This document shows positions 5,127 through 41,905 of a stretch of 64,000 bases of DNA, in pieces. Each line of letters starts with the position of its first letter. Position 1 is the first letter of the stretch. A model generated the notes under the pieces. The model did not search any database. It saw only the letters and a list, made by a program, of their open reading frames with translations, and was not told the DNA's origin. A program made the position numbers and the translations under genes. This stretch comes from Plumapathes pennacea (lineage: Eukaryota; Cnidaria; Anthozoa; Antipatharia; Myriopathidae), in the NCBI GenBank assembly GCA_964036295.1, contig CAXIWU010000001.1, positions 38,404-102,403 on the forward strand, given 5' to 3'.

Positions 5127-5550
5127 TGTAGAATATATAGAAATTAGCTCCTACTTCCTATTGTTAATACATTTCTATTAGAATTTTTCCTATTCCTTTA
5201 TCTAGTTTCTGAATTGTTTTTCCTATTACTACTATTTAGATTTCCTAATTTCCCTTGACAATTTTATTTACCTATGGTAGTGGTCAACTCGAAAGCTGCA
5301 TAGCTACTTTGACCACTATGCACATCCATCTCAACAAATCTCATAATAGTATATTCTCTCTTTTTTCTTCTAACATGTTCCTATTTAATTGTAAAAGAAA
5401 AAAAGAAAAAATAGTGCAAAATAAAAAATGAATGAATGAATGAATTAAGTGTCAACAATAGCAAGGTCCTTCACAGTAACTTCAAAACATTTCATTTCAA
5501 ACTTGTTGCAACAATGTTGATTTCAACAGTCATGTAAATACTTGTACATG
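5127..5550. other. AT-rich intergenic stretch
   Basis: No gene or transposon recognised. It contains a short (AATG)4 tract near 5427-5445, the same tetranucleotide that varies in length in the satellite. Confidence 0.5.
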
Positions 5551-9249: not shown

Positions 9250-11974
9250 TTACTGCGAGTCCGAGTCTTCACTTTCCACTTCTGTTTCACTTCCTGTTTC
9301 CGGTTGCTCCGTTTTTGGAGGAACCTCAACTTCCTCAAAAAACACGACAATAGCGCTTGTGTTGTCTGCCCTTAGTCCTTGCTCGCGCCAACTTGACAGT
9401 GCTCTGGACACGAGCCTAGAGGGATGAGCACGAGAGCTAAGTTTGATGAGGGGGAGGGGAAAAGATTATTTCGAGTAAAAGGTTTCGATGTCGGGATGGG
9501 TGGAAATAAGAGACGGGAAAGTGAAAAACAGGAAAGAAAGTGAAAAGGAACAGACGTAACGGAAGGAAAGAAACGGGAAAAGTACCGGCCCAAAGTGTGG
9601 CCGGAGAAGGGCAGATAAAAACTTAATTTCTAACCGTTTTGAGACTCCTCCGCCCATGTAGTCTCTGTTATTGTCAAATGCATGCACCAGATGAACAGAT
9701 TTGTCTGGCTTCATCACTCCCCACAATCCGTCCGAGGCGATCACTATGAACTTGTCTGTGAGTGGGTCAATTTTGTGGACCCGAATGTCCGGTGTAGGTG
9801 ACACAATGAATTCTCCTCTGTAGTAGTCGAAACTCCAAAGATCGCCTGAACAAGAAACGACAAATGAATCATCAAAAAAATAAAGGAGATGCCTTGGATT
9901 TACAATTAAACTTCTGCCGCGCTGTAAACCTAGTCATTATGCAGCTCGTTAGATAGCTTATAGATAATGATGGTCACACCCCACAAAAATACCCTGAGCA
10001 ACGCAAGCACAAGAGATAGAGAGCTTTTCGGATGACTGTCGAAAACTTAATTAAACCAAGGCAATCACAAAGCCAATCAATGAGGCAAGCAAAAACACGT
10101 CCGACCAATATTAAGTCCATGTCACACGAGGCATTTTTTCCTGCAACTTTGCAACGCAAAGCCGTTGGGAGACAAGTTCCAGAAGAAATTGTGCGTGCGA
10201 CATCCCTCTTTGCAACTTGCAACGCAACAAAAAATGCGAGACAAGCTGCAGGAAAAGCTGAACGGTCTCTCATTTTTCGCACTGTTGCGTGGTTTTTTTG
10301 CACCGTGTGATATGTACTTTGCAGTTTGTCTTGCAATGCTGTCGCCAGCGTTTCACTTGAAACACAAGAGGCGACCTCTGAAAAAATAAAGCAAAAAATC
10401 ATTGCTTACTGGCTATTTTGGTCAGCGTGTTTCAATTTAAGATCAAGATCGCACTGTACCAGTGAACAGTAACGGAGGCCTATCACGTTGATCGTCCAAC
10501 GCCCTCAAGATAAAATTACGTTCAACTTTATAAAACATACCCAGAGCTCGTGATACTGCCAAGAAGGGAACAGATTCTCTCTTGGTGCTTCGTCTGATGG
10601 GCCCTTTATGATCCAAGCAAACGGGCCTTTCCCAGGCGACGCGTGAAGTACCATTCCTGGTAAGCACCTTACCCCCCAAGGCCTCGATACGAAACTTTTC
10701 CGAAGGTAGGTCGGGCGTATGGTCGCAAGTAAGTGGCAAGGCTTCAAGTTTCTCCGTGACCTTGTTCGTTCTTCCGAGAACGACTCCCGAGTCACCGACA
10801 TGAGCTACGTAGAGCTTGCGTCCCTTGAGGATGACAATAGCAGCGGTGGTCCCGGATGTGCTGGGGAGGCCGTGTCGCGTTCTTGGCCATTTATCTGATA
10901 ATCAGGGCAGCGGAGGTGAGACAAGACCCATGCACTGCAACTTACTTCCCCTGCATCTTGTGATCATTTATGTCTGCGTGACCACCCTCCCCTTAGGTTT
11001 CTGAAGCATCACGCAACGAAGAACGAGATTGCGGATGCGCAGGGAGGGGTGTAGCCTAACTTTACTCTAGACTACGTTCTTGTTGACGTCACTTCCGTTG
11101 TTCACCGTTCGCGCCATGGCTAATCCGAAGTAAAATGTTAGATCGTGTGCAAGCCTCGTTTTTCTTGTGCTCAACTTATGTTATAAAAGATGCATTAAAC
11201 TAACTAATAGTATCAAGTCCTTATATTGAGTTTCTTGGCTGAGTCTTGAGGATACCTTGCGTTACATTGTCACATATTGTTGTCACTGTTCTTCCGTTTC
11301 TCTGGCAACCGTGCAGCAAAATTTGAATACGGAATAAAGACCTCTTTTCGTGGGTTTGTATCGTACGTTCGATGGATCAACACCAAATTGATTCAGCACA
11401 AGAAACCGTGATTCGTTTGATTTGCAATCTACATCGCTGTGTTTTTCTTTTGTATCAAAACATACAACACGCTCAAACTTGTTTCGCTCGTGATGTTTTT
11501 ACGTGAATGTTGAGGACTCGTGGGCTCGAATGACGATACACCAGTTTGTCTTCCGCCACGCCGACGCAGTCACCTAGTTCTCTTAAGAGCTGGTATTACA
11601 TCAGTAGAAATATATCTGACTTGTGTTCAGAGTAAGTTGATTAACACTGGATAAAAAAACTTACCGAGTTCCTTCCACATTGCGCGATGGGTCTCCATGA
11701 AACCTTCCTTTATCGCTCTGATAATTTGCTGTTCGTCGTTAGAGCAGAATCCTTTCTGCCGTTTCACAGTTGCCCATAATCTGTTCTTGGCGAATATCGC
11801 TGCATCCTTTCCACCGTGGCCATCGAATACTGCAAAAAAATATTGCTCCGGGTTGTGCTCAAACACAATGGACGTAAAATCTTCCATATCTTTTCTTCCA
11901 CCCTGGTTAGCTTCGCCTGAAACTCTCACTAGCAACCGCTTCACCTTCTTGTGATTTTTCGACCTCTCTGGCAT
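9250..11974 (-). CDS. PPM1D: PP2C-type Ser/Thr phosphatase, PPM1D/Wip1-like, four exons
   Basis: A metal-dependent PPM phosphatase, by family a nuclear enzyme that reverses DNA-damage/p38-p53 phosphorylation. Exons (minus strand): 11974-11665, 10894-10541, 9845-9635, 9415-9250; all introns are GT-AG and phases agree (1, 1, 2), giving 346 aa. Seen motifs are QGGRKDMED (24-32), DGHGG (51-55), LPSTSGTTA, VAHVGDSGVVLG (133-144), FLAVSRALGDLW, SDGLW (259-263) and RADNTSAIVV (307-316). The predicted metal-binding Asp residues 32, 51, 260 and 309 are all present. A basic loop resembling the Wip1 B-loop (about 185-212, RVAWERP...GPIRRS) separates it from other PPMs. The proline-rich loop of vertebrate Wip1 is absent. 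The protein ends about 30 residues after the catalytic core in an acidic tail. The start at 11974 has A at -3; in-frame ATGs at 12034 and 12385 would add 20 or 137 residues, the longer one entering repeat-like sequence, so I prefer 11974. Confidence 0.93.
10025..10118. mobile_element. One-ended copy of the GTTTTCGGATGACTG MITE
   Basis: It shares the terminal sequence TTTTCGGATGACTGTCGAAA and about 70 bp of following AACCAA/CCAATCA-type sequence with the complete element at 20923-21232. The other end is missing. It sits in intron 3 of the phosphatase gene. Confidence 0.7.
10119..10314. mobile_element. Foldback element with CATGTCACACGAGGCA-type ends
   Basis: The left end CATGTCACACGAGGCATTTT is matched by a diverged complement at the right end (TTTTTTGCACCGTGTGATATG region). 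Internal GCAACTTGCAACGCAA motifs are repeated in both orientations. About 196 bp, non-coding, within phosphatase intron 3. Confidence 0.6.
10895..11664 (-). other. Intron 1 of the PPM1D-like gene
   Basis: The donor is CTCG|GTAAGT at 11664 and the acceptor ATTATCAG at 10895. No additional exon or complete transposon was recognised inside. Confidence 0.85.
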
Positions 11975-12339
11975 AATTCTCGCTTCGTGTATTCGTAGAG
12001 TTCTGGGAACGTAAGGCTGCGAGTGCGAGTGCATGTGGTAAAATTTGTCCGTTACATAATGAGCTCGTTTGAATTTTCCACCAATGGCTCGCAATGAACC
12101 ACACAAGACGTCACAATATGAGCGGGCGATTTTGGGCTTGCCCAACTTGACGTTGGTCAACTTTTTGCTACGCGCGAAACGCAAGTTACCAGTATTGTAT
12201 ATTTCCTGGTCTGCAATACAGGCGTTCCGGTTCGTTTTTTGGCAAAATTCGTTCGGAGTGGGATCGGGGCGACCCCTTTTCCCTCCGCAGCTTTTGCTAC
12301 ACCCAAGTCCTACTCCCAAAAAAATTTTGCCTGAAAACG

Positions 12340-12625
12340 AACGGGAAGTGTTCCACACTTTTGACTTTAGACGTATAGTAGACATCTATAGTGTATATAT
12401 ATACACTATAGACACTTTAGACAGAATAGACATCGGATACTTCGCTAGAATCCCATTTTATATATTTGACTTTAGACCATCTATAACATATACATATAAA
12501 CGAAAGCACTTTAGACACAGAATAGACATCGGAGCACTCGTGAGATTTTTGCTGTACACTTTAGACATCTTTGATTTTAGACGTATATTATTATGGCATT
12601 CTGAGTTTAGACAGTGTTGTATATG
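12340..12625. repeat. Degenerate TTTAGAC-rich repeat with a 28-bp perfect palindrome
   Basis: The motif (A/G)(C/T)TTTAGAC recurs at least six times, often followed by AATAGACATCGGA or a GTATA/ATCTATA segment. Within it, 12385-12412 is an exact AT-rich palindrome with half-site TCTATAGTGTATAT. It lies upstream of the phosphatase start, so it may overlap its promoter, or it may be an unrelated degenerate transposon. Confidence 0.65.
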
Positions 12626-14940: not shown

Positions 14941-15785
14941 TGATACGACCAATTTTTAAGCGAGGGTTGTTAGCAAGTGGTGTGCCAACAATTTACTTCC
15001 AAGTTTGGGCATCAGAGAATACGCATGAAGAAATTTCAAGAGATAGGAAGTCGTTTTCTGGAGTTATTTTGCTTGTCATCATTGTACTCATGAATTGTCA
15101 GTCAATTTGTTGTATTTCTGCCTAGAGGGTTTTCGTAAATTGTCGGTTGTTTGACAAGCGCAGGTCAAAGTTTAAAAACCCGTGACAGCCTATCATTTGA
15201 TACTGTTTTGCTTTGCTTCACTTAATTTTCACCAGCAATAGAAAATACTGTACACAACTGAATCAAACTGGAAGAAGAAGAAGAATGCGAAAAATAATGA
15301 ATTGACCAAAACCGCAAGTATATGTCAGCAATTGTCTCAAATTTCACTCAATCACTTCAACTTGAAACTCAGCCAAAAGAAGGAAGACATAGTTTTTCAC
15401 CCTTTGTCCGCCGTGGAAATGAAAGGTTTGGAAAACGGAGACTAACCCGAACACGCGGTTCGGCGAAGGTGGAGGCCTGCGGAAACGGATGCGTGTTTAG
15501 AACATGAAGTTCCACATACCTAAGTTGAGCAAACTGTAAAATTTGACCTTGAGCCAGTTCTAATACACCTTTTAAAATACGTGAGTTTACAGCTGACTTG
15601 CTGCTTTCATTAAAAATGTCAGTACACCATGTTTGTTTGTCCGAACGCAGTTGCGGCCTTTGGCCATATGCCATCTTTAATTAACTGAAATAAGATAGCC
15701 TCTGATTGGTTAATCTCACCCTTACCACAACATTTGGATTCATGATTTGTTTAGTTAACCCTTCTGTCGTGAAGAAAATAGGAAT
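14941..15785. other. Upstream flank of the recombinase gene
   Basis: No supported gene. A promoter for the recombinase is presumably here, but no diagnostic motif stands out. Confidence 0.45.
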
Positions 15786-18700
15786 ATGGACAATTTGAAA
15801 GCTTATGAGAACGAGTCGGATTCCGACACAGACTCCTTTAGTTTCTCCCCCGAAAATTCTTGTGAAACGATACAAATACCAAACGAAAAGATTAGTTTCT
15901 ATGGAACCAATGATTTTACTGATGTGGAGAAAACGAAATGCTCCATGGAGAAAGCAGAGACTACTTCGATGTCCTGCGACACCCAAGTTGACGAACCTTT
16001 GAACAAGATTGCCAAGAGAGAGAGTAGTTTCTCTACTTACGGAGATTCTAGTGATGGCGTGCAAGAGAGAGACGGGAGAAAGACTTCTTCTAAATTCCCG
16101 GACACCCAAGTTAGCCAGCCAGATAGTCCACCACGAGAAAAATTGATTAGTTTCTCCAGTGACGGAGATTCTAGTGATGGCGTGCAAGAGAGAGACGGGA
16201 GAAAGACTTCTTCTAAATTCCCGGACACCCAAGTTAGCCAGCCAGATAGTCCACCACGAGAAAAATTGATTAGTTTCTCCAGTGACGAAGATTCCAGTGA
16301 TGGCGTGCAAGAGAGAGACGGGAGAAAGACTTCTTCTAAATTCCCGGACACCCAAGTTAGCCAGCCAGATAGTCCACCACGAGAAAAATTGATTAGTTTC
16401 TCCAGTGACGAAGATTCCAGTGATGGCGTGCAAGAGATGAAAAGCTGGTCCCAGCAAGTTGAAAAGCTGACTAATTCTGTCAGTGACGCCAGTGCCAATG
16501 ACGTAGTAGAAAAGATACACCCGACGCCTAGTGGCAGTGCTGTTCTGAAAAATCATAAGAGTTCAGCGTATCGTCTGCGCGATAAAGAACTTCCCGACGA
16601 GATGAGGACTTTCCTAAAGAACCTCGAGCAATTCTGGACTAAAAAGTACTGCCTGGCGCGCAGAGCTCCTGCTGTGAGCGAAACTACTTTCAAGAAAGTG
16701 CTGGAGAGAATTTTGTGTGAGTATTCATATTCTGTTTCTTAGGCGTTGTGGGACATGTTGTCCTTGCTGTAGTAACATTTCAGTTTCTTTCAGAGAAACA
16801 AAATTACCCTGATCGAGTTTGGTATTTTGGACAAACGAGTCTTTTCTGTGCGTTTCAGGTTTTCTTGGCTACGTGTCGAAGACTTCGGAGCTGGACACGT
16901 CAGTATTTAAAAAAGCTTCCCTGGTCGAAAGCTACCTTGAGTATTTGAGGGTAAGCAAATAAAGCAGTTGCGGTTTTCCAGATTAGTACAGGGTGTGGTC
17001 GAACAACGCAGTTTTAAAAGGAAGATGTTGTCGTAGTTGTTGCAACCATAGTTTTGTTCGGAACGTGTTTTATGGGTCCGAAGTTTGTTTGGCCATTGAT
17101 TCTGACATCGATTGTTTCACTCTGCTGTGTTTGGCATTGTTAGGTGCCATTCAGAACAATCAGTGGCATCGATGGCGTTTTAATGGTTATTTGATCGAAC
17201 CAAAAGCCGTTTTCCATTTACGTTCCAACCGAAATTTCCGGGGTAAATGGTAAACAACCTAAACCAACGGCTTCAGATTTGCGTAAACAAATCTGAAGCC
17301 GTTGGTTTGTTATCCGCTAAAATTTCTGAGTGACAAATGCCAAAAAATATCCACTTGCGGTGAATGTTTACAAGTTCATACAGTATGCAAATTAGTCAGT
17401 ATTTCAATTCTTGGTTTGCATGTGTCATAAAAAGCCTTTTCAAAAGTAACGTATCCTATAAATTAGCCTCCGTAGCAAGCGTTTCCGTAGGTTTCTAAGC
17501 GCATACGACAAATTTTTCGATTTTAGCCGCGCGAAACTTGGGGTGAGGGGGGGAGGGAGGAGGAGGCGGTTTCCTTCTCACCTCCCCGCCTCCCTCCCCT
17601 CGCGTCCTTCTTGCGCTCGCCCCAAGTTTCGCGCGGCTAAAATCAAAAAAGTCGTCGTATGCACTTAGAAACCCCCTACGGAAACGCTTGCTACACAGGC
17701 TACCTGTAAGTCCAATACACTGATATGTTCAAGACTATTATGCCTTTTAAGTCTTAAAAGACTTAAAGCAAAATTCTGGGTTGATACAAAATATCTATCA
17801 GGAGCTATGGACGTTTGAATACCGTGACAACAAAGCCGTGTGACACGCGCGTGTCATAATTTTTAAGCATAATTTTTAAGCAGTTAGAGTGCCTAAAACT
17901 TGAGTGCTTAGTGCTACAGAGACCCACACTAGACCCTTTTAGCAGAAGTCTTGGTGATTCATACATAATATCATGAACCTTTTGAACCAACAGGAAGAAC
18001 GCAACCTGAAAGATGCCACGATGGCTAACCATGTATCGTCTATTCTATATGTGATCAAGTTTCAAAACCAAGCGTCAGCGCCCCAATACAAGGATGTACC
18101 TCTACTGTCCCAGCTACGATCCATAGCAACTCAGCTACAAGTAAGAGGAGAAAGCCAACGTAATCAATCGAAGGAAGATCTTATCGAAGAGGGCAGGTGG
18201 CTAGACTGGTAAGTACTGTTTCAGATGTATGTACATTTTCAACCCACCGTTTTAAACGGGAAGGTATAATTGATGTAGTGAGAGTTGATAGTCTGATCAT
18301 TTACTACTTGCATGCAGTACAAGGTACCACAGAGAGTTTTCTGTGAAACATTCTTGAGATATATTGTGCAAGCGTATCTCTACCTAACATAATGAGCCTG
18401 CATTTTTATTGTTACTAAAGAGCACATTTCCCAATTCATTATAGGCCAGATGTGATCAGATCAGTGCGACTACAACAAGAACGCTATTACCTGGCGAAGG
18501 GCCATCAACACAGGGCAAAAGAAATGATGGACTTACTTCTCCTTGCTTTCTATGTATCAATTCCCCCAGCTAGAGCCTTGGAGATGCGAACTCTACAATT
18601 CTTTGATGAGGCAAACCAGGGAGCTTTCGAAAGAAAGAACTTTGAGAAAGAAAATGTCCTCATTCGAACCTCGGAAGGCAATTACACGCTGCTCTTCCAA

Positions 18701-23285: not shown

Positions 23286-23402
23286 AAACCCTTGGGCCCG
23301 GATGTTCAAAACTCGATTAAGCTAACCCAGGATTAATCACATTCTTTTCCTCTCGCCTTTGGCCAACGACCTGCAGCATTCTGATTAAAGACAAACTAAA
23401 AC

Positions 23403-25218
23403 GTTTGTTCTGGTTCAAAAGAAACAAATGGAGTCGTTTTGTGAGCGGATGCTTCTTATTTTCAGTCTTACAAAGAAAGGTCTTAAAGAACACAAACCAT
23501 TATCTTGCGAGACCTCATGAGTCAAATCCCCCCCCCCCTCCCCCTCCGGTCTGAGCATTCGTCCTTCTCAGCGGACTTTTGTGCGTGGGGAGGGGAGGGA
23601 GTGGGAATGTGCAGCCTAAAAGCTCAAAATTCGACTCGATGTCTGTGAGAGCGTTTTCTTCGTTAAAGTTGTACCTAGCCTTTCTCCAACAAAGTTCAGG
23701 TGCTTCGAACTTTATCTCAAGGTCGTACGCCTTCAGGAGAAGGCGTTTCACAAAAATTATAGTATGATGTCATCTTTCTCACTGCGATTCGCAGCTAATA
23801 ATCCCGTGATGCATTAGGACAAAAAATTAAGCAGCCTTCCTGTAAGGCATGCGACTTTAAAAGGAAACTTAAATGGTCTTGACGTTGTCGGAGAAAGCTT
23901 CTGATTCAGACGTGAGGAAAATATTCGCTCTCAGAGAAGTTCCAAACTTCGACTGCAATTCTACGACTTACTGCCCGACCCACCCACCCCCGGTATAGTT
24001 GGTATCGTGACGTATTTCCGGTCGGGCATTTTTACAGCAGAAAAACATGCGTTCCCGGCGATGAAAGTGCCTGAGGATGCAGTAAACGCTGCATAGAAGT
24101 ACGACTATACGATTGCCATCGACGAGTTTTGTAAATAGTTCGCTTTGCTCCGTCAAATTTGATGAAAACATGCCAACTTCATCAAGGCATCGACACGCAA
24201 GACCGGTAGGCATTCGCGAGTTTACACAGGTACGATTGGGGGAAAGAGGGAGAAAGAAAAGGCACTGTGCAAGTCGCAAGTTGAATCACTTTGACCGCCA
24301 GAGGAAATGTTTGCGCCATTTTTGGCGTCATAGTATTTTATTTATTCTTTGTACTAACTCAGGTTGATGAAGCACTCTGTAATTGTTCACAATTACCATC
24401 TATGACTGTACATATCATTTGAGTCTGTAAGGGCCATCCTCTTGTTTATTATTTACTATCAATGATGCCGGCCACTCCACACCAAACACAACAACAATTT
24501 ATCGATTTCAACTGTATTTCAGAAAATGATTAATTTTTTATAAAAAAAGACCCATATCCCCATTCCTACTACCTTCTAATATCAGTTCTAGAGTGCACAG
24601 TGTCTGCCAACCTAATGCTTTGGTTGGAAGCTGTGGTTTTGTTTTTTGCTAGTTCTAGTTCCATGTGATAAGCTTTCAATGGTTGTGACTGTTCATCTGA
24701 GCATATGTTGATTCCTAACTTTGCCTTTCCTTCAAGGCCCAAGACCTATATTGGTGGAAAAACTGCAATACAGCTGTTTGAGATAAGACATTGTCAATCA
24801 GAGAATTTAAAGAGGTAGGGGAACAAAAAAAGAAGGCAGTATGCAGACAATTAGCTATCTTTAGCCCTTTCACTCCCAAGCTCAAAATGCAGATTCTCCC
24901 AACCTTTTAAGAAGAAAATGTATGAGTAATATAGTGAGAATGAATAGTTTAATCAGCTTTCATCTTAGCAATGTATCAAAAACCAGGTTTTCGCTACTGT
25001 GTCATGTTTCTGGTGAGAAACTGAAGGAGATCATTATTGGGAGTAAAAGGGTTAAAATTTGAATTATTCACTCTGCAGGATAAGTGAAATTCCTATTAGT
25101 GGTAATCATGTACCTAATATTGGAAACAAGAATTGTGAAGGCTGTTTTGAACATGGTAATGATATCAGAAAAATTAGGCCTAGTTTATTATGGAAGAACT
25201 TGTTGGCAGTGGTGAATG
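23403..25218. repeat. Segmental duplication, copy A (1.8 kb)
   Basis: Matches 27711-29528 at an offset of 4308-4310 bp with only scattered differences (a C-tract two bases shorter, single substitutions). Content: an unidentified minus-strand frame at 23515-23751 (KRLLLKAYDLEIKFEAPELC), a plus-strand frame at 24113-24367 ending near ACAG|GTACGA, and a complete 195-bp MITE at 24861-25055. No gene could be assembled from it. Confidence 0.95.
24861..25055. mobile_element. 195-bp MITE, TTA(A/G)CCCTTTCACTCCCAA family, reference copy
   Basis: Terminal inverted repeats: TTAGCCCTTTCACTCCCAA at the left and TTGGGAGTAAAAGGGTTAA at the right. Interior conserved across copies: CTCAAAATGCAGATTCTCCC, ATCAAAAACCAGGTTTTC and GTTTCTGGTGAGAAACTGAA. 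Near-full copies are at 29171, 30385 and 32213, partial ones elsewhere in this window. Confidence 0.9.
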
Positions 25219-25409
25219 ACACTGGTCTTTCAGCAGTTCAAGACCATAAGGCACAGGCCAGCAGAACGCATTCCCCTTTACGTAAGTGTAAAACCATTTC
25301 TACTGCCCCCCCCCCCACCCATTGACTCTGTTTGAAGTGAATACTGATATGAATCTAGACTGGGAAGGACACAGGATTTAGTACAACCAATCAACCACTA
25401 TTGAGTTCA

Positions 25410-27419: not shown

Positions 27420-27710
27420 GACCTGTGGTTGTTTATATACAGTATGAGTTCTGTACAATGACTTATATCTACATAATCCTTCTCGAGTTGGTGTTATTAC
27501 AATAATATTGTTCTTGTTTAATTACTACAGTTCAAGAAATCAATTCAATAAACTGGTTCTAACAGCAAGCAAAGATTGTATTCAACTCTGCCTTGTACAA
27601 TGGGGAACTAAATTTATTTACAGCCGAGATTACGTGGTCGACTAGCGTCGTATAGCGCGTTCTTAACTATACTTAGCACTTACCAGCGTTCTTCCAGAAT
27701 GCTCGAGTTC
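27420..27710. repeat. Duplicated block B, copy 2, fused to block A copy 2
   Basis: Copy of 26400-26698. It ends at ATGCTCGAGTTC and joins directly to GTTTGTTCTGG, the first bases of the A duplication, at 27710/27711. Confidence 0.9.
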
Positions 27711-29528
27711 GTTTGTTCTGGTTCAAAGGAAACAAAAGGAGTCGTTTTGTGAGCGGATGCTTCTTATTTTCAGTCTTACAAAGAAAGGTCTTAAAGAACA
27801 CAAACCATTATCTTGCGAGACCTCATGAGTCAAATCCCCCCCCCCCCCTCCCCCTCCGGTCTGAGCATTCGTCCTTCTCAGCGGACTTTTGTGCGTGGGG
27901 AGGGGAGGGAGTGGGAATGTGCAGCCTAAAAGCTCAAAATTCGACTCGATGTCTGTGAGAGCGTTTTCTTCGTTAAAGTTGTACCTAGCCTTTCTCCAAC
28001 AAAGTTCAGGTGCTTCGAACTTTATCTCAAGGTCGTACGCCTTCAGGAGAAGGCGTTTCACAAAAATTATAGTATGATGTCATCTTTCTCACTGCGATTC
28101 GCAGCTAATAATCCCGTGATGCATTAGGACAAAAAATTAAGCAGCCTTCCTGTAAGCCATGCGACTTTAAAAGGAAACTTAAATGGTCTTGACGTTGTCG
28201 GAGAAAGCTTCTGATTCAGACGTGAGGAAAATATTCGCTCTCAGAGAAGTTCCAAACTTCGACTGCAATTCTACGACTTACTGCCCGACCCACCCACCCC
28301 CGGTATAGTTGGTATCGTGACGTATTTCCGGTCGGGCATTTTTACAGCAGAAAAACATGCGTTCCCGGCGATGAAAGTGCCTGAGGATGCAGTAAACGCT
28401 GCATAGAAGTACGACTATACGATTGCCATCGACGAGTTTTGTAAATAGTTCGCTTTGCTCCGTCAAATTTGATGAAAACATGCCAACTTCATCAAGGCAT
28501 CGACACGCAAGACCGGTAGGCATTCGCGAGTTTACACAGGTACGATTGGGGGAAAGAGGGAGAAAGAAAAGGCACTGTGCAAGTCGCAAGTTGAATCACT
28601 TTGACCGCCAGAGGAAATGTTTGCGCCATTTTTGGCGTCATAGTATTTTATTTATTCTTTGTACTAACTCAGGTTGATGAAGCACTCTGTAATTGTTCAC
28701 AATTACCATCTATGACTGTACATATCATTTGAGTCTGTAAGGGCCATCCTCTTGTTTATTATTTACTATCAATGATGCCGGCCACTCCACACCAAACACA
28801 ACAACAATTTATCGATTTCAACTGTATTTCAGAAAATGATTAATTTTTTATAAAAAAAGACCCATATCCCCATTCCTACTACCTTCTAATATCAGTTCTA
28901 GAGTGCACAGTGTCTGCCAACCTAATGCTTTGGTTGGAAGCTGTGGTTTTGTTTTTTGCTAGTTCTAGTTCCATGTGATAAGCTTTCAATGGTTGTGACT
29001 GTTCATCTGAGCATATGTTGATTCCTAACTTTGCCTTTCCTTCAAGGCCCAAGACCTATATTGGTGGAAAAACTGCAATACAGCTGTTTGAGATAAGACA
29101 TTGTCAATCAGAGAATTTAAAGAGGTAGGGGAACAAAAAAAGAAGGCAGTATGCAGACAATTAGCTATCTTTAGCCCTTTCACTCCCAAGCTCAAAATGC
29201 AGATTCTCCCAACCTTTTAAGAAGAAAATGTATGAGTAATATAGTGAGAATGAATAGTTTAATCAGCTTTCATCTTAGCAATGTATCAAAAACCAGGTTT
29301 TCGCTACTGTGTCATGTTTCTGGTGAAAAACTGAAGGAGATCATTATTGGGAGTAAAAGGGTTAAAATTTGAATTATTCACTCTGCAGGATAAGTGAAAT
29401 TCCTATTAGTGGTAATCATGTACCTAATATTGGAAACAAGAATTGTGAAGGCTGTTTTGAACATGGTAATGATATCAGAAAAATCAGGCCTAGTTTATTA
29501 TGGAAGAACTTGTTGACAGTGGTGAATC
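27711..29528. repeat. Segmental duplication, copy A' (1.8 kb)
   Basis: Near-identical to 23403-25218. After about 29515 it passes into the sequence shared with the 1.83-kb tandem units, whereas copy A continues into different DNA. Confidence 0.95.
29171..29365. mobile_element. 195-bp MITE family, copy in A'
   Basis: Duplicate of 24861-25055 within the segmental duplication, with the same terminal inverted repeats. Confidence 0.9.
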
Positions 29529-29732
29529 ACATTTCTTACATGTCCCGTCTCATTTGAAACTTGTGTAAATGATGTTACCAAATTATTTGCATGAATGAAG
29601 AACAGTTTAGATCACAAGGAGAAAGAAATGACATTAAATTCCAGGGCTGATGTCATTACCAAGTTTGAAACATAATCTAAATCTATACTGTATGATATGT
29701 TTGTGGCAAGAAACTAAAAGTCTCTCTTGAGG

Positions 29733-29950
29733 GGGGGGGGGGGTACTCCTACATATGAACCACATAGGTAAGTGCTGCCCCACAGGGTATCATTTTCAGT
29801 ATTTTAGTCTGAAATAGGTATCATTTTTAACTGGAATAGGGTCGGAGATTTCGATATTTGGTCTTAAATAGGGTTGAAAATTGCAAATTTTGGTCTGAAA
29901 TAGGATAAGAGTTTTAAGTCCCAGGTGGCACACTCCCACCCAAAATTTTG
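29733..29950. mobile_element. Truncated GGGGGTACTCC MITE, copy 1
   Basis: Poly-G then GTACTCCTACATATGAACC through GTGGCACACTCCCACCC. The right inverted repeat is cut off at the tandem-duplication junction. Confidence 0.8.
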
Positions 29951-30047
29951 GTTGGAAGCTGTGGTTTTGTTTTTTGCTAGTTCTAGTCTGTGATAAGCTT
30001 TCAATGGTTGTGACTGTTTGTTCATCTGAACATATGTTGATCCCTAA

Positions 30048-30241
30048 TTTTTTTTGCGCACTGTATCCCCCTGTCGGAGTCGAACCGACAAACCATTTTG
30101 GTTTAGCCACTGAGGGTCGTGTGTGCGTTCCCTATGTATGTTGCTGTGAATAAGTTATTGTGTTTGGCTGTTCTTTTTTTGTTTGTGAGGTAGTTATACG
30201 TGGTATCTAGGTGTGTCTTGCACAAAGTCCATTCACTTAAA
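30048..30241 (-). mobile_element. About 195-bp insertion with tRNA-like T-arm and A-tail, copy 1
   Basis: Absent from the otherwise equivalent sites in copies A and A' (CCTAACTTTGCC), so it is an insertion. On the minus strand it has an A-box-like CTCAGTGGCTAA, a perfect 5-bp T-stem with loop (GTCGGTTCGACTCCGAC) containing an exact pol III B-box GGTTCGACTCC (30086-30076), then AGGGGGAT and, after GCGC, a run of eight A. The spacing between the boxes is too short for an intact tRNA and no complementary acceptor strand is seen. It is probably a SINE-like or tRNA-derived retroposon, unusual in having its tRNA-like part at the A-tail end. Confidence 0.55.
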
Positions 30242-30384
30242 CTTTGCCCTCTCCTTCAAGGCCCAAGACCTATATTGGTGGAAAAACTGCAATACAGCTG
30301 TTTGAGATAAGACATTGTTAATCAGAGAATTTAAAGAGGTAGGTGAACAAAAAAAGAAGGCAGTATGTAGACAATTAGCTATCT

Positions 30385-30579
30385 TTAACCCTTTCACTCC
30401 CAAGCTCAAAATGCAGATTCTCCCAACCTTTTAAGAAGAAAATGTATGAGTAATATAGTGAGAATGAATAGTTTAATCAGCTTTCATCTTAGCAATGTAT
30501 CAAAAACCAGGTTTTCCTTACTGTATCATGTTTCTGGTGAGAAACTGAAGGAGATCACTATTTGGAGTGAAAGGGTTAA
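30385..30579. mobile_element. 195-bp MITE family copy
   Basis: TTAACCCTTTCACTCCCAAG at the left and TTTGGAGTGAAAGGGTTAA at the right, inside long tandem unit 1. Confidence 0.9.
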
Positions 30580-30629
30580 AATTTTAATTATTCACTCTTC
30601 AGGATAGGTGAAATTCCTACTGGCGGTAT

Positions 30630-30679
30630 GCAATTTCAGACCCAGAGAAACAATGATTGCTTCTCGGCTCTGAAATTGC
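30630..30679. repeat. Hairpin 1 (ACAATGATTG centre)
   Basis: GCAATTTCAGA ... GAGAAACAAT, centre G, ATTGCTTCTC ... TCTGAAATTGC: about 25-bp arms with few mismatches. Weaker pairing extends outward (GGCGGTA with AACCACTATAGG). Confidence 0.85.
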
Positions 30680-30933
30680 AACCACTATAGGTATTCTCTC
30701 CATCACAAAATGTTCTGTTGTTAAGAACCTATTTCATCAGATGATTGGCCAAAGGGTCCTTCATCTGGTAGGAACTTTTTTTGATATTGCATCTATACTG
30801 TAAGAGTTGTAAAGATTTATGTTTTGAACATGGTAATGACATCAGACAAAGCCGGCATAGTTAATATTATGCAAAAACTTATTGACAGAGGTGAATGACA
30901 TTTCTTACATGTCCTGTCTCATTTGAAACATCT

Positions 30934-31035
30934 CAGCTTTCATCTTAGCAATGTATCAAAAGCCAAGTTTTACCTACTGTGTCATGTTTCTGGTGAGAAA
31001 CTGAAGGAGAACATTATTGGGAGTAAAAGGGTTAA
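30934..31035. mobile_element. Right half of the 195-bp MITE family
   Basis: Begins at CAGCTTTCATCTTAGC and ends GGGAGTAAAAGGGTTAA; the left half is absent. The same fragment recurs in the next tandem unit. Confidence 0.85.
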
Positions 31036-31088
31036 AATTTGAATTATTCACTCTGCAGGATAGGTGAAATTCCTATTAGTGGTAAGCA

Positions 31089-31135
31089 GTAACTGAAAGG
31101 CTTGGAAACAATGATTGTTTCCAAGTTTCAGTGAC
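31089..31135. repeat. Hairpin 2 (ACAATGATTG centre)
   Basis: CTTGGAAACAAT, centre G, ATTGTTTCCAAG is a perfect 12-bp stem, extended by GTAACTGAAA with TTTCAGTGAC (one mismatch). It occupies the same relative site as hairpin 1 (after GTGAAATTCCTA) but has different arm sequences. Confidence 0.88.
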
Positions 31136-31559
31136 TGAAACTACTAATAGTATTCTCTCCATCACAAAATGTTCTGTTGTTAAGAACCTATTTCATCAGA
31201 TTATTGGCCAAAGGGTCCTTCATCTGGTAGGAACTTTTTTTGGTATTGCATCTATACTGTAAGAGTTGTAAAGATTTATGTTTTGAACATGATATTGATA
31301 TCAGAAAAATCAGGCCTAGTTTATTATGGAAGGACTTGTTGACAGTGGTGAATCACATTTCTTACATGTCCCGTCTCCTTTGAAACTTGTGTAAATGATG
31401 TTACCAAATTATTTGCATGAATGAAGAACAGTTTAGATCACAAGGAGAAAGAAATGACATTAAATTCCAGGGCTGATGTCATTACCAAGTTTGAAACATA
31501 ATCTAAATCTATACTGTATGATATGTTTGTGGCAAGAAACTAAAAGTCTCTCTTGAGGG

Positions 31560-31777
31560 GGGGGGGGGGGGTACTCCTACATATGAACCACATAGGTAAG
31601 TGCTGCCCCACAGGGTATCATTTTCAGTATTTTAGTCTGAAATAGGTATCATTTTTAACTGGAATAGGGTCGGAGATTTCGATATTTGGTCTTAAATAGG
31701 GTTGAAAATTGCAAATTTTGGTCTGAAATAGGATAAGAGTTTTAAGTCCCAGGTGGCACACTCCCACCCAAAATTTT
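31560..31777. mobile_element. Truncated GGGGGTACTCC MITE, copy 2
   Basis: Tandem-duplicate of 29733-29950, again cut at AAAATTTTG. Confidence 0.8.
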
Positions 31778-31874
31778 GGTTGGAAGCTGTGGTTTTGTTT
31801 TTTGCTAGTTCTAGTCTGTGATAAGCTTTCAATGGTTGTGACTGTTTGTTCATCTGAACATATGTTGATCCCTA

Positions 31875-32068
31875 ATTTTTTTTGCGCACTGTATCCCCCT
31901 GTCGGAGTCGAACCGACAAACCATTTTGGTTTAGCCACTGAGGGTCGTGTGTGCGTTCCCTATGTATGTTGCTGTGAATAAGTTATTGTGTTTGGCTGTT
32001 CTTTTTTTGTTTGTGAGGTAGTTATACGTGGTATCTAGGTGTGTCTTGCACAAAGTCCATTCACTTAA
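31875..32068 (-). mobile_element. tRNA-like insertion, copy 2
   Basis: Tandem-duplicate of the insertion at 30048-30241, with the B-box complement at 31904-31914. Confidence 0.55.
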
Positions 32069-32212
32069 ACTTTGCCCTCTCCTTCAAGGCCCAAGACCTA
32101 TATTGGTGGAAAAACTGCAATACAGCTGTTTGAGATAAGACATTGTTAATCAGAGAATTTAAAGAGGTAGGTGAACAAAAAAAGAAGGCAGTATGCAGAC
32201 AATTAGCTATCT

Positions 32213-32407
32213 TTAACCCTTTCACTCCCAAGCTCAAAATGCAGATTCTCCCAACCTTTTAAGAAGAAAATGTATGAGTAATATAGTGAGAATGAATAGT
32301 TTAATCAGCTTTCATCTTAGCAATGTATCAAAAACCAGGTTTTCCTTACTGTATCATGTTTCTGGTGAGAAACTGAAGGAGATCACTATTTGGAGTGAAA
32401 GGGTTAA
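32213..32407. mobile_element. 195-bp MITE family copy
   Basis: Tandem-duplicate of 30385-30579 with the same terminal inverted repeats. Confidence 0.9.
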
Positions 32408-32456
32408 AATTTTAATTATTCACTCTTCAGGATAGGTGAAATTCTACTGGCGGTAT

Positions 32457-32506
32457 GCAATTTCAGACCCAGAGAAACAATGATTGCTTCTCGGCTCTGA
32501 AATTGC
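32457..32506. repeat. Hairpin 1, tandem copy
   Basis: Same hairpin as 30630-30679, in the second long tandem unit. Confidence 0.85.
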
Positions 32507-32760
32507 AACCACTATAGGTATTCTCTCCATCACAAAATGTTCTGTTGTTAAGAACCTATTTCATCAGATGATTGGCCAAAGGGTCCTTCATCTGGTAGGA
32601 ACTTTTTTTGATATTGCATCTATACTGTAAGAGTTGTAAAGATTTATGTTTTGAACATGGTAATGACATCAGACAAAGCCGGCATAGTTAATATTATGCA
32701 AAAACTTATTGACAGAGGTGAATGACATTTCTTACATGTCCTGTCTCATTTGAAACATCT

Positions 32761-32862
32761 CAGCTTTCATCTTAGCAATGTATCAAAAGCCAAGTTTTAC
32801 CTACTGTGTCATGTTTCTGGTGAGAAACTGAAGGAGAACATTATTGGGAGTAAAAGGGTTAA
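32761..32862. mobile_element. Right half of the 195-bp MITE family, tandem copy
   Basis: Duplicate of the fragment at 30934-31035. Confidence 0.85.
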
Positions 32863-32915
32863 AATTTGAATTATTCACTCTGCAGGATAGGTGAAATTCC
32901 TATTAGTGGTAAGCA

Positions 32916-32962
32916 GTAACTGAAAGGCTTGGAAACAATGATTGTTTCCAAGTTTCAGTGAC
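32916..32962. repeat. Hairpin 2, tandem copy
   Basis: Same hairpin as 31089-31135. Confidence 0.88.
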
Positions 32963-33383
32963 TGAAACTACTAATAGTATTCTCTCCATCACAAAATGTT
33001 CTGTTGTTAAGAACCTATTTCATCAGATTATTGGCCAAAGGGTCCTTCATCTGGTAGGAACTTTTTTTGGTATTGCATCTATACTGTAAGAGTTGTAAAG
33101 ATTTATGTTTTGAACATGATAATGATATCAGAAAAATCAGGCCTAGTTTATTATGGAAGGACTTGTTGACAGTGGTGAATCACATTTCTTACATGTCCCG
33201 TCTCATTTGAAACTTGTGTAAATGATGTTACCAAATTATTTGCATGAATGAAGAACAGTTTAGATCACAAGGAGAAAGAAATGACATTAAATTCCAGGGC
33301 TGATGTCATTACCAAGTTTGAAACATAATCTAAATCTATACTGTATGATATGTTTGTGGCAAGAAACTAAAAGTCTCTCTTGA

Positions 33384-33630
33384 GGGGGGGGGGGGGGTAC
33401 TCCTACATATGAACCACATAGGTAAGTGCTGCCCCACAGGGTATCATTTTCAGCATTTTAGTCTGAAATAGGTATCAATTTTAACATTTGGACTGGAATA
33501 GGGTCAGAGATTTTGATATTTGGTCTTAAATAACGTTGAAAATTGCAAATTTTGGTCTGAAATAGGGTAAGAGTTTTAAGTCCCAGGTGGCACACTCCCA
33601 CCCAAAATTTTGAGGAGTACCCCCAGGGGG
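33384..33630. mobile_element. Complete GGGGGTACTCCT MITE
   Basis: Poly-G followed by GGGTACTCCTACATATG at the left and AAAATTTTGAGGAGTACCCCC at the right, so GGGGGTACTCCT and AGGAGTACCCCC are inverted repeats. The interior has GGTCTGAAATAGG-type repeats. It ends about 20 bp before the stop codon of the SNase-SET gene, so that gene's 3' UTR would run into it. Confidence 0.85.
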
Positions 33631-33649: not shown

Positions 33650-36600
33650 TTACTGGTCCGAAATATCGATGTGTTGTAATGATCTCTCCACATCATCCAT
33701 GTTGGCAGGAGAGCCCCTTGCAAGGGCTGCCACAATGCGGTTCAACACCTTAAAGACATGAATATAAATAAAGTCTTTAAACCACTCTTTAGTACATACT
33801 TATAATTTTTCTTTTATCCATTACCTGATCTGAATACAGGGGTCTCCAGAAGGCATTACCAGGCCCAGTGTCATACTGAAGGAGAAGTTCTTCACCAGCT
33901 CTGACAATCCGTCTTGTCTTGATCCAAACCTCATCCATCCTGAGTGCGAACCTACAATTAACTCTCTCTTGCACAATTCTGGCATACTTCCTGTGTAGAC
34001 TGAATGGCCACGACCCTGAGATTTAAGATGCATCTGTAAGTGTTGGCATATTTAGCTTCGTGGGATCTAATTTTCACAGATTTTCCAACAATCGCGAAAA
34101 TTAGATCACGTAAAATGTAAACTGTAAAAATAGAAAATAGAAATAGATCAACAAATTTAAAAGTAGCACCATAAAACAAGCAGTTTTAAAAGGTGTTGTC
34201 AAATGGGACAACAGACAAAGAATCTGGAGGTTTATTTACCATCGTTGAGCAATTTCCCCAAGCCAACCTCACACTTTCTGCCGTCTACTGATAGATGGTT
34301 GTTCCTCCAGAAAAATTCAAGGGTGTAGTCCCCCTCGGCTTCAGCTGCTGGTTCAAATGGTGCTGATGGAGCGTATGCACAGACCCAAGTGTTCTCAGGA
34401 ATTCTTCTCATTGTGAAGAGGCCATAGCCAGTGTCCACGTTCCCCACACCAACAACTCTGCTCTTGAGTATTTTAAGGGCGCTTTCTCCTGTCCTAAGAA
34501 GAACAACAAGCAGGAGAAATCTCATTATGCAAACCAGGTATTGAAGTTGTAGTACCCTTTGTACTTTGGTGTAAGCTGTTGGTTACATGAATATGATATA
34601 GATTGATGGTTTTGCAATTTAAAAAATGTCACAAATTGTGAAATTATAGGGTTGGCTTCAATAAGTAGTAGACACTATGTTACTGCTCTAGGTTGCAGCC
34701 TCCAACAGGTCTTTTGTTTTGCTTTAAGGTACCTTTCGAGATCCGATATCTTAAATCCATAAGGTGATGGACTCGTGGTTGGCTTGTTGTCATTTGCCGA
34801 CCTTCCTCGCCCGTGCTGTAGCTCTTTAAGAGCCTGCCGTTCCTGCCATGGGAAGTTCAAAGTGAGATGGTTTCCAGCCTTGAACATCGTAGGAAAACCT
34901 GTGGGAAACAAGGACTGGACATCGTTAGCCTGAAAAACCGAAAACAGTTTATCGACTTGTTGGTCAATGGGATTATCTTTGGCCAGGAGGTTACGGCTTG
35001 CTCCTGACCAAATGGGACCAAGTTTATTTTCTTTTGCAATGGTCTGCAGAGACAACAGGCGTTGATCCATACAGAACTTGGTAAAAACAAAACTGGTTCC
35101 TGCAAGAACAAGGAAAGCGTTGACATTTAACAGAAATGGGGCATCTGAACTTGCATCAACTGGGTTTGCCAGGGACATCACGCGTTGACGTAATGTATCC
35201 GGCAAAACCAATCGAGCATAGTTGTTGATGACTCGAAGTGCTTCCTCTGATGGCCGTGCTGACCACGAAATCCAGTAGTCTTGGATTGGCCGCCCAAAGG
35301 GGTCTGTTGGAACAGGAACACCACCTTTAGGCACTTCGCTATGCAGCTGGCCATTACCTGTGGAAACAAAAGTATGAAGAACATACATTAATGCAGACAT
35401 GCTGTGATGTCCAGTATATTTATGATACAATGTTCGATTGTTATCACGCATATACTGGACAGCACACAACTCTGGGGCATCAATATGAGCCAGCCTAGTA
35501 TATAGGCAGGACTCCATTGGGTCTGGCTTAGTTGGATCAATGTTAAGCACCAAACCATCGCCATCGTTTACGAGAACCTGGTCCACTGGAATTGGCACTG
35601 ACAGGACTGGCAGTTGGTCTGCACCCAGGCAGAAGGGGGAGCTGGTGACAAAGGCCTGGTGCATATCTTCATCGACATCCGCTGTGATGAGACAAGGGGA
35701 CCCTTGTGTTAGTAAGTGGAGTACATTCCTTCGATAAACCATGTGTGAACTCTTTTTTCTCAATTAATTTTTTTTACAGGGTTATCAAAATTTGGATTGG
35801 AATGACTCATTCTGTTTTCTTTTAGAATTTTTTGTATGAAAAAATGGGGTGTGTATAGGCAAGATACTGTTAACTTTTAAAATGTATTATGACCTCCCTC
35901 AGCTGAGGACAGACTGAAACCCTGCACACACCCAAGCAAGGGTTATTGATCAGACTCTGTAATGCACAACAGATCAACAGACAATCCAGTTGCATAAATA
36001 TCTATACACCATTCTTTCAAAGACCCCCTCCCCCTAGGAATTCACGTTTCCAGGGTATTCATTTTACCAATCCCCCTCCCCCCATCCTCTGGAAAATTTT
36101 AAACTTTGTTGACCTCTCACCCTTGGAAATTTCAGCTACCAGACTGACCCCCAACCCCTTAAAAATTTCTTATCCCTCCGCAGTGGGTATATGTAATTTC
36201 TGGCACACCCTAATTTGTCAGAGAACAACTTCCTTAATTGGAAGACCATATGATATGGCTTGCCTTTCCTGCTTGTACAAAGAGGCGAGCTGAAGATTCT
36301 TTTCTTTAAGGTTCACAATGAGGAATGAAAAGACCACAAGTACCAACCTGTCTGGCAAATAATGTCTGGGATGAGTTGTATCGCGCTTCGAACTTCTCCA
36401 CTGCATAGGTGTTTTATCGGTTCATTGACATGCTGAAGTATCGGGAACGAAGACACTGCGCGGTAAACGAACATTGCCTCTTGGAGTGAGCTGGCAGAGC
36501 ATCCAATCTCCACGGTGTCGGCCAATATTGTGAGAAGGCTGTTACCTCTTGGACGACCCCGGGCTGGTACCTCTGCTTCAGGAATGGCCATCGCTCCGAT

Positions 36601-38980
36601 TTTATTGCTGGTGATGCTGAGTAGCTGGCCAATCTGCTGCTGTTGTTGTACTGCAAGCCGATGGCGTTGTTGAAGGGCCAAGTTCAACTTCGTCAGGACC
36701 TAAACAGGAATTTGGAAGAATCTTTGTGACAGTTGACCAATATCTTTGTCCTTCAGTTTCTCACCAGAAATATATCACACAGAAAGGAGAACTTGGTTTT
36801 TGATAACTTGCTCAGATGAGAGTTGACAGAAATATAAATTCTCGCTACACTGCTCTGGGAGAATCTGCATTATGAGTTTGTGTGTGAAAGGGTTAAAGCA
36901 AGTATGGTCTGGCGTACATGTCTATATGTTGTTACATTTCATGGCTGCCAGTGTTAGGCTCTGGAATGTTGCATTTATTTTTTATTTTCAGTAGGGTTCA
37001 ACAAGAGATAAATGTACATACTGCATTAGTTGCAATGGCTGGGACTTCCTGGTGAATGTTTCGTGCCACGTCAGCAAGTTGTTCAGCGTCATCTGCAAAA
37101 AAAGGTATAACACTAGAAGGAAAATATGAAGAGTTAAAGTCACAGTTTGTAAGATAGGTTAAATAGGTATGAGCTTTGTCTAACGGGTTTAACGATTCCT
37201 TTAGAAGGTTTTCTAGGTAATGTAGACTCCTGTTGTGGGCGAAGTCTGCACCAACATCTCGTGGTATCCATGGAGCTGGAACTTGGACCTTTTGAAAATA
37301 CAATAAAGTGACACTGTTATTAAGTTGAATGAATGAATGAGAGACTGATGAATCACATTCAGGAACTTATAATATTAAAGTATTTCATGTTGACAATCTG
37401 CTTGGTTCTTGTTGGTTTAAACTGATCCTGCCAAACTGCAAATATCATATGCAGTTTTTTTTTAAAGTCTTTCTGTTTAAAGGTTATAATTGGGGACAAA
37501 TCATTTTTTTGTACTAGAGGCATGTTAAATGGTCACTATTTTAACCAACTTGTAATGGCATCTCAAAGGAATTGTGTGCTCGATACCCAGACTTTTCTGT
37601 GTACTCCAGTTGGTTAAATACTGGAGGAGATTAATTAACAATCTGTGACATAATTGAGTGTGCAATAGATCTGACTTTTTAACATTTGCCATTCTGTTTG
37701 TTTGCCAAAACATTCTGAAACTTGGTAGTGTTACTAACAAGGATGTGTCCTTTCTTGTGACTGGATTCATTTTTTAATTCAATTAATTTTGCACACTCGG
37801 TCCCAGTCCCTCTTCCATTTCTAAAGTGGTTGATAGCGACAGAGCTGACAAACGCACTGTGCATGCGCAGCCGCACAGGCAAGCTTTTTCCTGCAGAAAC
37901 TGGCACAGGTGTACGCTCCACTGAATCCCTTTGTATTTTTCAATTGTGTGGCGAAACACAGCTTCCGGCAGGGTTTTTAAAAAAAGTTAAGACGCAGAAG
38001 CAATTTTTATACGTCGATCGTAAAAATACACCCCTTTCGGGCGGAGCCTCCCCATATAGCCGATCATAGGGAGTACCCTACCCCCCCCCCCGGGGGGCCA
38101 GCTGCATTCCGTGAAAGTCGTAGATAGTATAAAAGGACAATATACTTAAGGTGAAAGGACCAGTCAAGCATTGCAACGAAAAGGAAAGCTCTAAGGCTAA
38201 TTTAAGTTAATATATTGACCTCAGTAATCGGATTCTGAACAAGATAAACAAAGCGTACGAACTGATGACGTCACCAACGCAACGCGTTTGTCAGCTCTGT
38301 CGTTAAAAGCAGGTGTTTTACAACAAACATTTTGATATACTGCTAGTAACGAACGGGAACGCTCGAGGCTAACATAAAGCATGTCCATGTTACATGTTCT
38401 TTGAAAAAGTCCGCACTGAGTCTACGGGTTTTTTGAAACTGAAAATTCCGTAAATCGCACAAATTCGTAATTCCGCGAAGCGAAACTTTCATGCCACACA
38501 GTGGTGGCAAACGGTAGTGTCTCAAGTGGAATTGTCTCAAATAGTTGTTCTGGCTTAGAATATTTTTGAAATATACGATACCTGGCGTTCGTCGCGGATT
38601 CTTAGCTTCTTTGCCACCCTGCGTGTTCGTCGAGCGACTTTTCGCTTGCGACTCTCAGAAGTGACCTCTCGTTGCTCTTCTTCGCGTTGCTCTTCGTCTT
38701 CTCCTTCTTCTTCGTCAATTTCTTCCTCTTCCTCTTCCTCTTCGTCTGCTGGTGGTGGTGGTGGTGGTGGTGGTAATTGCACTTGTTCCCGCACTGGCCG
38801 GGAGTTGACAGCAGACGAGGAACCTGCAGCTGTAAATGTTAGTATTTCATCTAATTTACTTCTAAAATAATCAAAGCTGGTCCGACTTTCGACATTTGGG
38901 ACAATAAAACGTTGTAAGGCTTCCGAACGGCGAACAAGCTCTTCGAGCATATGCTTAGGAACATATATTATCTCCGCCAT
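33650..38980 (-). CDS. SNase-like nuclease and SET domain fusion protein, seven exons
   Basis: Assembled by hand on the minus strand: 38980-38582, 37288-37022, 36699-36348, 35702-34733, 34493-34240, 34015-33825, 33748-33650. Introns are GT-AG, phases match at every junction and no stop interrupts (843 aa). Residues 1-133: N-terminal helix-rich part, eight prolines (70-77), an acidic run (79-105) and a basic cluster (111-127, RKRKVARRTRRVAKK) that may be a nuclear signal. About 238-245 is Gln-rich. Residues 378-570: staphylococcal-nuclease-like domain with NDGDG (Asp386, Asp388), TRLAHIDAPE (Arg409, Asp414, Glu417), DPFGR (Arg477) and a late LGPIW; the equivalents of the nuclease catalytic Asp/Arg/Asp/Glu/Arg are kept. 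Residues 674-800: SET domain with VDTGYGLF, LLNDG (744-748), VNC (766-768), RAGEELLLQYD. The SET part joins through a phase-2 intron (GAAAG|GTACCT). Function is inferred only: a chromatin-associated nuclease/methyltransferase is possible. No signal peptide or membrane segment is evident. Confidence 0.82.
36762..36898. mobile_element. Inverted, partial copy of the 195-bp MITE family
   Basis: Read on the plus strand: CTTCAGTTTCTCACCAGAAA ... GGGAGAATCTGCATTATGAG ... GTGTGAAAGGGTTAAA, the reverse complement of the family. It lies in intron 2 of the SNase-SET gene. Confidence 0.75.
38060..38100. mobile_element. Fragment of a GGGGTACTCC-type MITE end
   Basis: TAGGGAGTACCCTACCCCCC followed by C and G runs resembles the end of the MITE at 33384-33630. 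Located in intron 1 of the SNase-SET gene. Confidence 0.4.
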
Positions 38981-41290: not shown

Positions 41291-41442
41291 TTCGCCGGCG
41301 TCCACAATAGTTCCAGGATGTGTCGTCAAATTCTTGAACAAAATCACTGCGACATTACTGAAGTGTTTCTTCTATATAAAACGTCGAACCTCGAATAGCA
41401 GACCTTCTTCCGGAAAATGCACCTGCGATATAAGAAAAATAT

Positions 41443-41905
41443 GCCATTTACATTAATTTGCAAAAATATATGTTTTTCAACCAGAATCAGTGGTAGTTAT
41501 TTTAAAATAATTTAACCTCCTAAATGTGCGAAAGTTAGGGTGAGCTTGTGTCACTAACGCACTGAGTTAAAAAGAAATTGCCATCTGCATTAATTTAAAA
41601 AAATGTATCTGTTTTTCAACCAGAATTAGTAGTAGTCATTTTAAAATAATTTAACCTCCTTAATGTGCGAAAGTTAGGGTGAGCTTGTGTCACTAACGCA
41701 CCGAGTTAAAAAGAAATTGCCATCTGCATTAATTTAAAAAAATGTATCTGTTTTTCAACCAGAATTAGTAGTAGTCATTTTAAAATAATTTAACCTCCTT
41801 AATGTGCGAAAGTTAGGGTGAGCTCGTGTCACTAACGCACCGAGTTAAAAAGAAATTGCCATCTGCATTAATTTAAAAAAAAGTATCTGTTTTTCAACCA
41901 GAATT
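41443..41905. repeat. 139-bp tandem repeat, about 3.4 copies
   Basis: GCCAT(C/T)TGCATTAATTT-type unit starts at 41443, 41580, 41719 and 41858 (spacing 137, 139, 139). The last copy runs without a gap into satellite array 2 at AATTAGTGTTAGTCATTTT, where its own version would be AATTAGTAGTAGTCATTTT. Confidence 0.95.

Follow-up and report, generated by a model that had tools for sequence, protein, structure and literature searches.

A predicted seven-exon gene combining an SNase-like and a SET domain in Plumapathes pennacea

The window analyzed here is a 64,000-nucleotide stretch of the 290-Mb Plumapathes pennacea genome, which is assembled in 24 contigs (contig C13, positions 38404-102403). It contains a minus-strand gene in which a staphylococcal nuclease (SNase)-like domain is followed by a SET domain, an order that recurs in diverged paralogs, with selection detectable on exons 2-7. 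Analysis of open reading frames (ORFs) and splice borders gave seven exons (Table 1) with GT-AG borders throughout and compatible phases, as a preliminary description of the locus had proposed. The predicted product is 836 aa long, however, and not 843 aa as given there. The SNase residue set listed in that description is complete, but its numbering (386/388, 409, 414, 417, and 477) runs 7 too high at each position, from which we conclude that the earlier model carried 7 extra residues before the SNase-like domain.

Paralogs were found on C7 (L052 at 5.50 Mb, L053 at 9.79 Mb, and L054, a pseudogene with stops, at 5.36 Mb) and on C2 (L056), and by-exon identity of L052 and L053 to the window protein is 48-74%. 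They were also of use in the gene model, as the frame of exon 6 stays open with three alternative acceptors (34015, 33967, and 33961). Because L053 and a further paralog, L055, share an AG at the position equivalent to 34015, reading on as GSxPFTLHRKY, this acceptor was chosen and the other two were dropped; L052 reads SWPFTLHRKY at this point, with the AG displaced by 1 base.

Table 1. Exons and associated features of the gene, in window coordinates
Feature	Position	Strand	Content	Basis
Exon 1	38582..38980	-	start codon, acidic stretch, basic tail resembling a nuclear localization signal (NLS) RKRKVARRTRRVAKKLRIR	ORF, splice borders
Exon 2	37022..37288	-	N-terminal region, part	gene model, paralog identity
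Exon 3	36348..36699	-	N-terminal region, part	gene model, paralog identity
Exon 4	34733..35681	-	SNase-like domain and linker	SNase profile, thermonuclease matches, alignment A7, fold model
Intron 4	34494..34732	-	separates nuclease from SET exons	position kept in L052 and L053
Exon 5	34240..34493	-	SET, first half (GYGLF, LLND)	PF00856, paralog identity
Exon 6	33825..34015	-	SET, second half (VNC, GEELLLQYD)	PF00856; acceptor from L053 and L055
Exon 7	33650..33748	-	C-terminus and stop codon	gene model, paralog identity
Conserved upstream block, 125 bp	41333..41457	-		genome matches beside family exons

The proposed fusion of the two domains is upheld by the 34733/34493 junction, which is conserved in two diverged paralogs. 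In both L052 and L053 the SET exons come after the nuclease exons, and the donor and acceptor joining them match those of the window gene to the codon, at 62-74% protein identity. That a nuclease gene and an adjacent SET gene were wrongly joined is barely credible in this light: the exon 4 frame does stay open for about 55 nt beyond the donor, until a stop at 34677-34675, and an in-frame ATG lies upstream of exon 5, but the sequence beyond the donor is, by eye, not conserved, and the ATG coincides with the acceptor's pyrimidine tract.

The hallmarks of SET domains are an S-adenosylmethionine (SAM)-binding GxG, a catalytic Tyr near ELxxxYD, and an NHS..NC pseudoknot motif. The SET core noted earlier was recovered by PF00856 above its curated cut-off (33-34 bits versus 22.4), with the GxG present as GYG and the catalytic-Tyr motif as GEELLLQYD. 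Exon 5 is 72-74% identical to its counterparts in L052 and L053, and exon 7 is 48% identical to those of L052 and L055. Motif III speaks less clearly for an ordinary SET enzyme, as it reads LLND..VNC and not NHS..NC, keeping the Asn and the NC while the His is replaced. Matches in the PDB for this part were to EHMT1 and weak (E 0.58). Neither Pre-SET nor Post-SET was reported by the Pfam scan, and Tudor had no Pfam match up to E 1 in an 820-aa version of the protein.

The SNase-like domain spans aa 360-575 (window 34975-35622, within exon 4). In staphylococcal numbering, the catalytic residues of SNases are D21, R35, D40, E43, and R87. In an alignment with 15 SNases (A7), residues D381, R402, D407, E410, and R470 line up with all 15, and D379 and D381 form the aspartates of a DGD motif; the window gene has lost none of the five catalytic positions. 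With a local SNase profile, exon 4 ranked first among 1232 six-frame ORFs of at least 40 aa (E 3e-5), and it gave matches to thermonucleases. A predicted model and its fold matches, SND1 structures being among those found by Foldseek, point to the SNase-type oligonucleotide/oligosaccharide-binding (OB) fold.

A number of results weigh against this assignment. No Pfam match to SNase was found in the predicted protein up to E 10, nor did hmmscan find one in NCBIfam or PHROGs, and a genome scan with PF00565 passed over the window gene, its single match lying on C1. Used by itself, a profile built from six phage-type SNases fails, since 25 of 6000 decoys score equally high. The fold model was built with an alignment containing SNases as a guide, while a single-sequence AlphaFold model failed, with a predicted local distance difference test score (pLDDT) of 36. 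R470 is alignment-dependent, as alignment A6 (10 SNases) places a different Arg at the GR position; A6, in which the GR motif is misplaced, was superseded by A7. Because there is no Pfam match above the cut-off, we call the domain SNase-like and not a member of PF00565. Of the hidden Markov model searches that the preliminary description had called for, the one for SET thus succeeded with PF00856, while SNase was missed in Pfam and detected with the local profile. In a profile-profile comparison, just 42 C-terminal columns aligned (76.7% probability, E 2e-5). Exon 4 returned nothing useful by phmmer against the PDB or by tblastn against phages, and scans of viral contigs and prokaryote genomes for relatives of exon 4 or of the paralog alignment, which reach close relatives only, gave pattern matches of which none was confirmed. 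The exon also contains an inverted repeat just past the D..PE motif (35403-35466), with 25-nt arms, 84% complementary, and a 14-nt spacer.

Some of the SNase repeats of Tudor-SN are thought to be non-cutting binding modules, and the domain described here may likewise no longer cut, serving merely to bind nucleic acid or protein and so to target the SET enzyme. We consider this possible, if somewhat doubtful. It would fit the strong divergence from SNases, the long inserts within the domain (alignment A7), and the loss of the catalytic Glu in L052, where it is replaced by Lys, a change that also counts against a conserved nuclease. It fits less well with the retention of all the catalytic positions in the window gene, and with an exon 4 that is identical in the copies on C4, C14, and C17.

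The acidic and basic, nuclear-looking N-terminus of the earlier reading is supported by exon 1, whose basic tail would point to a nuclear location. Between this charged part and the SNase-like domain lies a middle region of unknown fold. Identity to L054 is 57% in exon 1, 79% in exon 2, and 82% in exon 3; L052 reaches 53% in exon 2 and 55% in exon 3, and its exon 1 is recognizable, by eye, from the basic tail alone. The first 68 aa had no tblastn match in L052 or L053, and none of exons 1-3 had a match in L053. Two candidate domains were rejected for scoring below their cut-offs: HEPN (PF05168) in exon 2 (15.6 versus 22 bits) and CCDC106 in the charged N-terminus (18.9 versus 30.2 bits).

Matches to exon 4 were found at 13 of 14 candidate places in the genome, to the SET part at 18 of 20, and to the N-terminus at 22 of 25. 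At the protein level, exon 4 is identical in four places (C4, C13, C14, and C17); one further match runs off the end of contig C15, and the others are diverged and lie on C7 and C2. The window, C14, and C17 copies show no difference in any of the seven exons, and the C4 copy is in frame, with an in-frame length difference of one proline in exon 1. Because C13 itself holds a second copy, 75.7 kb from the window gene and truncated by the contig start, at least some of the copies must be real duplicates; the rest could represent a single locus seen as haplotypes or repeated by the assembly. Among the paralogs, L052 lacks a G at the donor of an extra intron in exon 4 and has a shifted exon 6 acceptor, while L053 lacks the exon 5 donor. 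The extra intron, canonical GT-AG and located at 4937-5064 of L053, divides the SNase-coding exon in the C7 paralogs and is absent from the window gene, so that an intron was either gained or lost as the family diverged.

Comparison with L052 over 684 codons gave a proportion of differences of 0.729 at synonymous sites (pS) and 0.241 at nonsynonymous sites (pN), and a ratio of nonsynonymous to synonymous rates (dN/dS) of about 0.11, with dS near saturation. The SNase part alone gave 0.14, and in the SET part synonymous sites were saturated. The ratio was 0.10 against L053 (471 codons) and 0.29 for L056 (158 codons). From these low values we conclude that exons 2-7 have evolved under constraint through most of their history; for exon 1, the sole comparison was with the pseudogene L054. 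Tempering this conclusion, L052 against L053 (471 codons) gave 0.32 and the window gene against L054 (654 codons) 0.34, which argues for weaker constraint on the C7 copies. The window copy could itself be a dying duplicate without present function, given that the C7 copies carry stops or damaged splice sites and that about 1.9 kb, largely interspersed repeats, separates the gene from the conserved upstream block. In view of the intact C14, C17, and C4 copies, we find this distinctly unlikely. All 10 candidate places for the upstream block matched, 9 of which adjoin family exons and 1 of which, on C21, matched in the flank only. The block is present upstream of L052 and L054, is 77-83% identical at its C7 matches, and had no match at L053 or the C2 pieces. 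It is a candidate promoter or 5' exon; a TATA-like motif within it was set aside as promoter evidence, because it is absent from L052 and L054.

The gene lies in a 37-kb core between arrays of a 365-bp satellite (99% alike; window 1-4424 and 41906-64000). Near the two ends of C4, parts of this core are found again in opposite orientation, and C13-C17, C20, C21, and C23, several of which are short, carry parts of it as well; the distance between copies is 75.7 kb in C13 and 80 kb in C4. This pattern suggests a subtelomeric macro-repeat, and the large satellite-flanked repeat carrying the gene looks like a segmental duplication. The alternative that the gene is cargo or a coding part of a mobile element, which the preliminary description had entertained, found no support and is very improbable. 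The several near-identical copies and decayed paralogs would fit such an element, but introns are retained in the duplicates, L054 homology takes in the introns together with some 0.4 kb of 5' flank, and the loci are few (C4 and small contigs sharing its repeat, C7, and C2). Neither long direct repeats nor, among the 25 of 33 pairs listed, inverted repeats longer than 20 nt bracket the gene, and neither a transposase or reverse transcriptase nor defined ends were identified. Between the satellites there are 19 ORFs of at least 130 aa, of which 14 showed no transposase and the other 5 are ATA-repeat ORFs; shorter ORFs there were scanned in part.

Several other features of the repeat were observed. 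A protein phosphatase 2C gene lies on the minus strand at 9466-12385 (PF00481 in three ORFs). The segment 9167-11124 is just 91% identical on C4, C14, C16, and C17, whereas identity reaches about 99.9% for the SNase-SET part on C4, C14, and C17, and the repeat units are therefore mosaics. A tandem duplication with a 1.83-kb unit (29453-33612) ends 38 bp beyond the stop codon of the gene, and a partly related 1.82-kb unit occurs at 23402-25221 and 27710-29531. Two ORFs had no Pfam match: one of 327 aa on the plus strand (15759-16742), with a near-perfect 41-aa repeat (123-bp unit) present 3.4 times, and one of 245 aa on the minus strand adjoining the left satellite array (4413-5150).

Several known systems resemble parts of this protein. 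Bacterial and phage thermonucleases (PF00565), mostly small single-domain enzymes, share the OB-type fold, the DGD, R, D..PE, and GR motifs, and a C-terminal G...A..lG.W segment, but the window domain has its inserts and is missed by Pfam. SET lysine methyltransferases share GxG, VNC, and GEELLLQYD, but here LLND stands for NHS, no Pre- or Post-SET accompanies the domain, and SET lies behind an SNase-like domain. Tudor-SN/SND1, a protein of animals, contains SNase folds and has been linked to both chromatin and RNA. The resemblance lies in these folds and in the Foldseek matches; SND1, however, combines several SNase repeats with Tudor and lacks SET, whereas the window protein has SET and no detected Tudor. 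In the titles, opening parts of abstracts, and passages of PMC2993927 and PMC9960886 that were covered, no description of SNase and SET in one chain was found, and automatic annotation elsewhere is quite possible; in the co-occurrence table of PMC2993927, the partner of SNase is TUDOR.

Taken together, we think it rather likely that the gene is genuine, has long been under purifying selection, and encodes a single-chain nuclear protein with an SNase-like domain and a C-terminal SET lysine-methyltransferase domain. Judging by its motifs, the SNase part would bind, and probably cut, DNA or RNA in a calcium-dependent manner. Once bound, it could keep the SET domain close to a nucleic-acid-bound protein, most plausibly histones, whose lysines SET would methylate, so that the chain may couple nucleic-acid cleavage to lysine methylation. 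Our guess would be that the protein serves to silence or clear nucleic acid that is foreign or repeated.

Both domains are well known singly, but no account of the two in one chain was found in the literature covered. If both are active, the cutting of nucleic acid and the setting of a chromatin mark would be tied together in one protein. An unlikely extension is that the gene represents a class of chromatin enzymes in animals not described before, with nucleic-acid cleavage and lysine methylation carried out by one polypeptide at one site, for instance in silencing repeats or foreign DNA, and that it duplicates and decays like an arms-race gene. The copies and decayed paralogs within one genome present a case of birth and death in a chromatin-enzyme family, set in satellite-rich, subtelomere-like DNA.
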